From: Nitrospirae bacterium RIFCSPLOW2_12_42_9
Lineage (GTDB): Bacteria; Nitrospirota; 9FT-COMBO-42-15; HDB-SIOI813
Direction of reading: 5' to 3'
Assembly (NCBI GenBank): GCA_001805205.1
Contig: MHER01000174.1
Span: 1 to 12,098 of the forward strand
Length of the DNA: 12,098 nt
A program made the translations under genes and the position numbers. Of the stretch, positions 3,631 to 5,198 are shown piece after piece; position 1 is the first letter of the stretch; every line of letters starts with the position of its first letter. The notes below the pieces were generated by a model that saw only the letters and a list, made by a program, of their open reading frames with translations, did no database searches and was not told where the DNA came from.

Positions 3631-3960
3631 TTATCTCCTTATCTTTACATAGAATCCCAGGGCCCGCTGTAAGACCCTCTCTATATACTCCTCTTCCTTC
3701 CCCGCTTCTCTCCACGATTTAACAGATGGGATGCTGATGAAGATAGGTAATATACTCTCTTCTATCTTCCTGTGAAGAGATTCCGGGAGATTTCCTGAAT
3801 ATTCATCGCTGTACGCTACAATCTCATACTCCCTGTTTCTAAGAAACTTCTTGATATAGTCCTCTGCCTCTTGATGCGATAAGACGCTGTAGGCATCAAC
3901 ACCTGCGAGCCGGAACCCGAGGGCAGTATCAGGATCTGTTATTATTGCGACCCTTGCCAT
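3631..3960 (-). CDS. atpF: V/A-type ATPase subunit F (shaft-associated)
   Basis: Subunit F is a small Rossmann-like protein bound to D in the central stalk; in relatives it modulates ATPase activity. The 109-residue product begins MARVAIITDPDTALGFRLAGV, which carries the family's T-A-L-G-F-R-L-A-G motif. It continues with EYEIVAYSDEY and ILPIFISIPS, equivalent to the usual second and third beta strands. An upstream in-frame ATG (3999) would add 13 residues (MLFNLYFWLYFWD). That stretch is encoded by a repeated 12-bp unit and the arm of an inverted repeat, so I reject it as coding. The ribosome site before 3960 is poor (GGGAT immediately upstream), which is odd beside its neighbours. The gene is separated from atpC by the palindromic element. 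Confidence 0.93.
   Translation of the reverse strand: MARVAIITDPDTALGFRLAGVDAYSVLSHQEAEDYIKKFLRNREYEIVAYSDEYSGNLPESLHRKIEESILPIFISIPSVKSWREAGKEEEYIERVLQRALGFYVKIRR
3635..3640 (-). promoter_or_regulatory. Shine-Dalgarno of atpA, embedded in the end of atpF
   Basis: AAGGAG on the minus strand sits in the last codons of atpF, 10 nt before a TTG start. It justifies the TTG start and makes A translation likely to follow F termination. Confidence 0.7.
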
Positions 3961-3963
3961 ATC

Positions 3964-3987
3964 CCAAAAATAGAGCCAAAAATAGAG
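3964..3987. repeat. Perfect tandem duplication of a 12-bp unit before atpF
   Basis: CCAAAAATAGAG occurs twice head to tail on the plus strand (3964-3975 and 3976-3987). It sits between the atpF start codon and the left arm of the palindromic element, whose arm begins inside the second copy. It may be replication slippage or a scar of insertion. Confidence 0.8.
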
Positions 3988-4134
3988 ATTGAACAGCAAA
4001 GGAATCAGTTGCCGCTCATTCTCGGCGGGCGTCCTGCCCGCGTCCGAGGTCAGCGTCTAATCTCACCATCCTGGTGAGACTTTACGACGCTGAAATCCGC
4101 TATATCTGACTCCTTTGCTGTTCAATCTCTGTTT
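3980..4134. repeat. Nested inverted-repeat element between atpC and atpF (MITE-like or structured RNA)
   Basis: The outer arms are 28 nt each (3980-4007 and 4107-4134) and match as inverted repeats at 26 of 28 positions; the core is GATTGAACAGCAAAGGA. Between them lie two internal hairpins. The first is 4021-4048: GCGGGC pairs with GCCCGC, extended by CTCG with CGAG. The second is 4050-4093: TCAGCGTC pairs with GACGCTGA and encloses the perfect hairpin TCTCACCA-TCC-TGGTGAGA (4061-4079). The predicted RNA is a long stem topped by two arms. ATATCC at 3959-3964 and GGATAT at 4138-4143 could extend the stem over the atpF start codon. No transposase gene lies nearby. It may be a non-autonomous mobile repeat, a structured RNA of the operon, or both; I cannot tell from one copy. 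Confidence 0.85.
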
Positions 4135-4148
4135 CATGGATATCAATT

Positions 4149-5198
4149 TTATATAAGTATAAGGCTCTCCACTTCTCCCTGCGGGAGGTTATAGTGGATA
4201 CCCCTTATCATGGTCCTTAGATTTATAACCTCATTGGTCTTTCTCCATATATAACTTATCACAAGTCCGATGTGGAGGGGGTCCTTATGTGGAAGTCTTT
4301 TAGCATGGTTTAATATTTCGTAATCCATCCACCTTTCAACCTGCAAGAGAGGGTTTGTTATACGTGATTGTGCAGAGAATCTATCCCAGTGCATCTTCCA
4401 CACAGCCCTGTCAATCATGGCCATACACTCGCTTACGCCCCTCCCCTTCACGATCTTTTTATATATCTCCAAAGAGAGCAGACTTCCCCCTTCAATAAAG
4501 TATCCAAAGGCATCCTCTGAATGTAATCCACCTTCTGCCATCTTGATTGAGGCAATGAGGTTATATCTGTCAATGAGCATCCTTATTGTATCTTCCACTA
4601 TTGCACTATTCAGTCCCCTCTCCCTGGATGACTTTATTCTGTTTATCGCATCTTTGAAAAATGCCTTCTCCAATTCCACCTCTCCTTTAAACAGATTCCC
4701 CTCATTGAAATTCCTGATCTTCTTAAGCGATGAAACATAAGTATATCTCAGGGTAAATAGCATATCTATCATGGCCTGGACAGATGGTTGCTTATACACC
4801 TCCCTGAGCATCCCCTCATCGAGGCTTCCTGCCGGGACTGTCGCAGAAAGGGCCTCATCTGAAGGGATATTATTCAGTTTCCCCCTGACAAGGGTCTTAA
4901 TATTAAAGAGATCCCACCGTGATAACAAAATATCTATCAAGGTGCTATCATCCCCTTTAAAAAAAGAGAGGATCTTTTTCATGGAAACAGAGAGGGAGGT
5001 CCTGAAGGTCGTATCCATTGTATAAATCAAAGGCCCTTCAACCCATTCACTAAAATAGAAACCGTAGGTGGTCTTTTTAAGGTAGCCTGCGGCTGCGGAG
5101 AGTTCACGAAAGGATAATATCTCTCTCAGTTGTCCCTCATTGAGGAGATCCCCCTCCATTGACCGTATCCGTGCATTGATATATGCATAATCAGGCAT
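4149..5198 (-). CDS. atpC: V/A-type ATPase subunit C (d-type, rotor coupling)
   Basis: Subunit C is the funnel-shaped protein that seats the D/F shaft on the ring of K subunits. The 349-residue product has the usual length and begins PDYAYINARIRSMEGDLL, the typical Y-x-N-A-R-I-R-x-M opening. It is mainly helical. A segment near the middle, LLSRWDLFNIKTLVRGKLN, and the C-terminal segment YIWRKTNEVINLRTMIRG are the family's repeated W-D-x-x-N and K-x-x-E-x-x-N-L-R patterns. No transmembrane segment is seen. The start overlaps the end of atpE by 8 bp and has no obvious Shine-Dalgarno, so it is probably translated by coupling. Confidence 0.95.
   Translation of the reverse strand: MPDYAYINARIRSMEGDLLNEGQLREILSFRELSAAAGYLKKTTYGFYFSEWVEGPLIYTMDTTFRTSLSVSMKKILSFFKGDDSTLIDILLSRWDLFNIKTLVRGKLNNIPSDEALSATVPAGSLDEGMLREVYKQPSVQAMIDMLFTLRYTYVSSLKKIRNFNEGNLFKGEVELEKAFFKDAINRIKSSRERGLNSAIVEDTIRMLIDRYNLIASIKMAEGGLHSEDAFGYFIEGGSLLSLEIYKKIVKGRGVSECMAMIDRAVWKMHWDRFSAQSRITNPLLQVERWMDYEILNHAKRLPHKDPLHIGLVISYIWRKTNEVINLRTMIRGIHYNLPQGEVESLILI

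Follow-up and report, generated by a model that had tools for sequence, protein, structure and literature searches.

A MITE-type element, probably IS1380-mobilized and carrying a conserved Y-shaped fold, upstream of atpF in a Nitrospirota ATPase operon

The large palindrome between atpC and atpF in Nitrospirae bacterium RIFCSPLOW2_12_42_9 is very likely (probability about 0.8) a non-autonomous, MITE-type DNA transposon, probably mobilized by an IS1380-type enzyme, that carries a conserved Y-shaped fold as its passenger. It belongs to a new family of MITE-type elements in which the fold is unusually well kept, is strand biased, and travels in more than one vehicle. The family is large and apparently unnamed, to judge from a limited search of the open-access literature in which no description of it was met. 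The window analyzed here is the whole 12,098-nt stretch of contig MHER01000174.1.

Results

A palindromic unit separates atpC from atpF

The operon in the window encodes a V/A-type ATPase on the minus strand, with subunits G, I, K, E, C, F, A, B, and D (ORF list). Subunits F, C, E, I, and G were searched against Pfam; A, B, D, and K were named after the initial annotation and a look at their sequences. Most junctions outside C-F had been described as overlapping or shorter than 15 nt, which is true for six of the other seven in the ORF list (I-K, K-E, E-C, F-A, A-B, and B-D), and the G-I junction is 30 nt. Between atpC (subunit C/AC39; 4149–5198, minus strand; ORF list and Pfam) and atpF (subunit F; 3631–3960, minus strand; Pfam), the same list gives a spacer of 188 nt, which would be 7 nt without the inserted unit and one target duplication.

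The outer arms of the palindrome, initially annotated as 28 nt with 26 matches, are real and were measured at 29 nt with 27 of 29 positions complementary (93%), lying 97 nt apart. On the minus strand, which we call the folding strand, they form the 5' arm (4106–4134) and the 3' arm (3980–4008) of a long stem, P1. The two enclosed hairpins, one nested in an 8-bp stem, were also found: P2 (4050–4093, minus strand) has the stem TCAGCGTC/GACGCTGA around TCTCACC/GGTGAGA, and P3 (4021–4048, minus strand) reads CTCGGACGCGGGCAGGACGCCCGCCGAG. Conserved junction strands AGCGGATT (4094–4101) and AATGAGCGG (4012–4020), both on the minus strand, complete a Y-shaped three-way junction with P1 as its stem and P2 and P3 as its arms, which forms the interior of a 176-bp unit. 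Comparison with shuffled sequence, the check proposed with the initial annotation, supported the fold: the plus strand of 3959–4143 gave −87.7 kcal/mol versus −42.6 (SD 3.95) for 200 dinucleotide shuffles, none of which was as good (z −11.4), and the minus strand gave z −10.0 (200 shuffles).

The unit has the features of a MITE insertion

The whole transposable unit occupies 3964–4139 (minus strand) and has CC…GG ends. These were recognized by comparing copies within other genomes, where the true ends showed that a unit can exceed the fold bounded by P1; general extension of the stem past P1 was not found (p 0.27). Directly at the P1 ends, duplications of 2- to 5-mers were near chance, and duplications became visible only once the true unit ends had been established. 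The palindrome originally drawn at 3959–4143 is confirmed, but the mobile unit is slightly offset from that span, with 5-bp target duplications at 3959–3963 (beside atpF; ATATC on the plus strand, GATAT on the minus strand) and 4140–4144 (beside atpC; ATATC on the plus strand).

Read directly from the sequence, the terminal inverted repeat on the atpF side (3964–3987) is a tandem pair of the 12-bp CCAAAAATAGAG (3964–3975 and 3976–3987), and the one on the atpC side (4127–4139) is CTCTGTTTCATGG on the plus strand. Put as unit ends, these are CCATGAAACAGAG at the 4139 side and two consecutive CTCTATTTTTGG on the opposite side, so that the terminal inverted repeats expected of a MITE are present as CCATGAAACAGAG and CCAAAAATAGAG at 4139 and 3964. 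The ORF list has no frame of at least 50 aa wholly inside 3964–4139; this short unit lacks a transposase gene. On the coding strand, the last AT of GATAT, followed by GG, opens the atpF ATG (3960–3958), and the unit thus ends 3 nt before the start codon.

Two relatives have an empty site. The C-F junction is unoccupied both in L008, from a Nitrospirae MAG (C subunit 92% identical), and in L009 (C subunit 63% identical); the window minus the unit and one duplication is collinear with L008. No significant match was obtained in the L008 and L009 genomes (best E 0.134). AGGAAG stands directly 5' of the atpF ATG in L008 and is absent from the window; the sequence before the ATG is AAGGGGATC in L009 and TTTTTGGGAT in the window. 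Altered atpF initiation would be plausible. Between 3900 and 4250, no terminator-like site (GC-rich hairpin followed by a T run) was found, and the window holds one promoter-like match versus 0.6 expected.

Copies are dispersed in the host genome and across the phylum

Besides the window copy, the host genome (2.05 Mb in 208 contigs, 85% complete) carries two others, at L006 2302–2457 and L007 2626–2731. Neither has a clear 5-bp duplication; the copy between xerC and miaB has a TATGGC repeat, and its site is empty in the L009 genome. A further dispersed repeat lies at L007:4167-4278, with short matches of 86–95% at several points of the L008 and L009 genomes. Using the core as the BLASTN query, matches among 61 genomes were confined to the host and G038.

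A covariance model built from the three host copies and the G038 copy matched in 67 of 395 sampled Nitrospirota genomes, the host included; the nine further genomes from its own family gave no match. Eight candidates were scored per genome, so the copy numbers are undercounts. A 16-base gapped pattern matched in 75 of the 395 genomes, some by chance, with up to 32 copies in one (G117); the reversed pattern gave five hits, and pattern hits in G041, G042, G047, G071, and G235 were unlike the element. Inspection of 80 loci, from 86 pattern stretches on viral contigs, found none with the element, and phage and plasmid records gave no match. Rfam reported no family over the gathering cut-off in the window, three chance-level matches far under the cut-off around the element, and only tRNA and SRP RNA, outside the element, in 20 other loci.

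Pairing is conserved by covariation and biased to one strand

Alignments of 33 and 90 copies were fitted to the model, which favors structure. Within that constraint, 93.4% of cells in the 90 distinct copies can pair, compared with 61.7% after shuffling and at most 44.1% in slid controls, and cells with both sides changed number 1162 versus 297 in shuffles. In these copies, 36 of the 39 modeled pairs have changed on both sides; for P1, all 14 modeled pairs have done so among relatives. The smaller set of 33 copies keeps the three-way junction as well. In the first alignment, made by sequence only from four copies, 13 pairs were changed on both sides versus 5.0 in shuffles.

The junction bases are the best conserved part of the element in the alignments, and both junction strands were placed from the alignments and from their covariation with each other. 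Among 112 pattern matches, the purine of GARCGG (in AGCGGATT) and the pyrimidine of GAGYG form 87 G-C, 24 A-T, one G-T, and no A-C combinations; the P1 stem continues into the junction.

Mismatches differ between the strands. Scored alike, G·T exceeds A·C by 63:12 in P1 and 11:6 in P3; on the model alignment the ratios are 80:17 in P1, 37:19 in P2, and 13:5 in P3. The finding of many copies with a model that allows G-U may have added to the excess. From this excess, pairing seems to be selected on one strand, which in the window is the mRNA-sense strand, as RNA or single-stranded DNA. Such a bias argues against a role as a double-stranded cruciform. The suggestion that the palindrome is structured is supported by the strong covariation, which is dispersed and not limited to this operon.

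The fold travels in units with different ends

Units bearing the core were delimited in several relatives, with ends of up to 17 bp. Those of G123 are 198 bp long with ends CCCAAATCCAGCGATAA and CCCGGATTCAGCGATAA; similar units are 194 bp in G272 and 197 bp in G374, and in G185 most units measure 186–187 bp and have different CC ends. Among 21 units in which both ends were recognized by sequence alone, with duplications left out of account and some ends doubtful, eight are flanked by identical 5-mers (shuffled mean 0.96, maximum 5, 2000 shuffles) and 13 lack matching 5-mers. A wider 5-mer search near copies also yields chance repeats. In G123, L385, L389, L395, L397, and L399 have the end of the core-bearing units and a similar start of the arm; by eye their interior is changed, and the core pattern match is absent.

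Ends of the CCCAAATCCAGCGATAA type also flank units without the fold. These include 139-bp elements in G308, with duplications AATTA, TTTTA, and TATTA and none at the L378 unit, a 201-bp unit in G143 with the same ends and duplication TTAAT, and others. The 139-bp MITE, seen at L378, L390, L396, and L400 of G308, contains two different hairpins, and this 1.9-Mb genome has 35 end matches, one IS's included. Because units with the same ends and other contents occur, the fold appears to be a passenger and not a component required for transposition.

Two insertion sequences have ends of this type. An IS in G324 (L409 1102–2751; 1650 bp) has a 464-aa open frame with a PF13701 match of 214.7 bits, a marker that we take to denote IS1380-type transposases. 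Its ends, CCCAAATCCAGCGGTAA, are inverted at 17 of 17 positions, it is flanked by the duplication TATTA, and the ends are near-identical to those of some 194- to 198-bp core-bearing units. A 1496-bp IS in G308 carries exactly CCCAAATCCAGCGATAA at both ends, and its transposase is split over two ORFs (PF13701 34.2–36.6 bits for the first, versus a cut-off of 34.7, and 133.9 bits for the second); its flanking 5-mers differ (L407). Ends in common with an autonomous transposon were thus seen in the CCCAAATCCAGCGATAA group (L407 and L409), whereas the window's own ends differ. CC ends with a 4–5 bp duplication are the rule in the IS1380 family, were seen directly in L409, and are also found in the window unit, for which mobilization by an IS1380-family enzyme is probable by analogy.

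PF13701 was detected in 15 of 50 genomes surveyed (2 of 12 and 13 of 38). The host genome, at 85% completeness, gave no match, and the window ends CCATGAAACAGAG/CCAAAAATAGAG are unlike those of the PF13701 loci whose ends were found; such a match of ends was seen only for relatives. There is also no PF13701 gene in G123, G374, G290, and G229, though all four have core copies with CCCAAATCCAGCGATAA-type ends (only one unit end was seen in G290 and G229). No genome was seen to combine an autonomous IS with core-bearing units of the same ends. The PF13701 copies of G272 and G191 were rejected as partners, their ends being different. DDE_Tnp_1 (PF01609) was likewise rejected: it is present in six of 12 genomes, absent from G123, G185, G310, G374, G350, and G290, and none of its loci has the end motifs searched. 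The two copies at L039 and L281 sit between ends of another type (CAGTAGTGTCCGGTAAAA) with 9-bp repeats, so that one transposase does not account for all copies, and the fold seems to be carried by two or more kinds of vehicle.

Insertions of different ages

Multiple dispersed copies and unoccupied sites in relatives, both marks of a MITE, are found in other genomes too. The G290 copy at L089 1680–1807 is absent from its congener G252, and that at 16081–16209 is absent from G374 and G350. In a set of 71 copies from six genomes, both flanks are shared by 18 pairs of copies from different species or genera, amounting to 11 sites. Some insertions are polymorphic, then, and others old. Identity in 16 shared-site comparisons ranges over 61.8–97.1% for the element and 54–96% for its 25-nt flanks; the flanks are less conserved than the element in 15 of the 16, and six of these comparisons concern one site. 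Within the compared pairs, which are not independent, positions with both sides changed are paired in 43 cases and broken in seven, and those with one side changed are paired in 41 and broken in 45. At some shared sites, different species carry different subtypes (L331 and L322, for instance), and L316 differs from L053 in P3 alone, which suggests gene conversion. The idea that the arms are made anew at each insertion was discarded, as the arm is almost identical in three G290 copies.

L096 2753-2917 and L101 2872-3042 are variants in which P2 is replaced by a long AGGTTA-type repeat hairpin, and each lies close to a standard copy of opposite orientation, at distances of 11 and 13 bp. At L089 13565-13732 and L076 1127-1305, extra hairpins beginning GGGGTCCCC lie inside P3 or P2; they resemble a nested insertion of another palindrome.

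Genomic contexts do not favor a cis-acting role

Of 85 copies placed in context by a simple ORF finder, 53 lie between ORFs of one direction, with the folding strand antisense to them in 37 and sense in 16; a further 16 lie between divergent and 16 between convergent ORFs. These contexts make a cis-acting mRNA role unlikely for most copies. No neighbor gene family recurs beyond groups of three among 290 neighbor ORFs; these groups are two shared insertion sites, the dnaX neighborhood, an ABC-ATPase group, and L020/L099/L105. Elements at L030 and L066, of two families, lie near tRNA/SRP RNA genes and dnaX at different positions. The 25 nt flanking the stem on each side show no conserved sequence in 85 copies, and so no shared promoter or terminator there. 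Orientation relative to GC skew was mixed: it is opposite in 22 of the 27 G131 and G191 copies, in four of 13 from four other genomes, and in 26 of 40 overall. GGA loops were suggestive of a CsrA sponge, yet many P2 loops in f11 copies read TGA, and this candidate was dropped.

Discussion

On this reading, the 176-bp unit was placed 3 nt ahead of the atpF ATG by a trans-acting transposase, probably an IS1380-family enzyme; we read the insertion from the sequence and infer the enzyme. Insertion would have duplicated 5 bp (GATAT on the coding strand) and so spared the start codon. The Y-shaped junction is the conserved interior common to the family across the phylum, and its pairing seems to be selected on one strand, in RNA or in single-stranded DNA. 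Consequences for the ATPase operon may follow from the 188-nt spacer and the absence of the AGGAAG seen in L008. Of the two proposals originally made for the palindrome, the MITE-like repeat is borne out by dispersed copies, inverted ends, a 5-bp duplication, and empty sites in relatives.

The other proposal, that the repeat was domesticated within the operon as a regulatory RNA setting the amounts of F, A, B, and D, agrees with the very stable fold and with the favored folding strand being the mRNA strand here. It fares poorly against the covarying pairs, which are not restricted to this operon, and against the absence of the element at the C-F junction of the two nearest relatives found. The fold adjoins many other genes, without recurrent neighbor families beyond groups of three and mostly antisense in same-direction contexts, and 3900–4250 lacks a terminator-like site. 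A regulatory role in the ATPase operon is unsupported, and we consider this explanation improbable. Much the same low probability attaches to a stand-alone family of small-RNA genes spread with their own promoter: strand-biased covariation and the better conservation of the element than of its flanks at shared sites would fit, but the unconserved flanks of 85 copies leave no shared promoter or terminator there, and some copies are bounded by transposon ends.

REP, BIME, and REPIN sequences are dispersed intergenic palindromes, and the element resembles them in being dispersed, intergenic, and, by eye, often close to stop codons; it is also longer, has target duplications, and showed no link to Y1 transposases. 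Movement by a Y1 (RAYT) transposase recognizing folded single-stranded DNA would account for the apparent selection of one strand and the intergenic hairpins, and Y1 genes occur in 25 of 30 genomes tested. However, the element-rich G119 and G290 have no Y1 match, none of 30 Y1 loci searched (of 73 places listed) carries the element, and duplications with inverted ends fit a DDE transposase, so that we regard this route as highly improbable.

The MITE reading accords with several known systems in part. What the element shares with IS1380-family IS, such as that of L409, is CC…GG ends in inverted orientation together with a 5-bp duplication, but it has no transposase and the ends alone are shared; for the window copy, likeness is confined to the CC…GG type of end. 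A long stem crowned by two arms is the form of the parvovirus-type T-shaped inverted terminal repeat, a likeness of shape that does not imply kinship, the element being chromosomal and bounded by transposon ends. QMITE2 of Coxiella (PMC10969869) is described as a short, intergenic element without a transposase gene, with inverted ends, direct repeats, and a predicted stem-loop transcript. Like such bacterial MITEs, the unit studied here is short, transposase-less, and intergenic with inverted ends and direct repeats; it differs in that 36 of 39 modeled pairs have changed on both sides across a phylum, mismatches are strand biased, and one interior occurs within different ends.

Tentatively, the Y-shaped module could be a selected, strand-specific RNA or single-stranded DNA part that rides as a common passenger in unrelated miniature transposons, stays in place once inserted, and is exchanged at fixed sites through gene conversion. 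We think this wider proposal rather unlikely to hold as a whole; if true, vehicles would change while the module persists across the phylum by serving the host or the elements. The family allows one to ask whether the fold of a MITE is selected, on which strand, and what for. The ATPase operon offers a case in which the duplicated target leaves a start codon intact even as the insertion adds a structured spacer.
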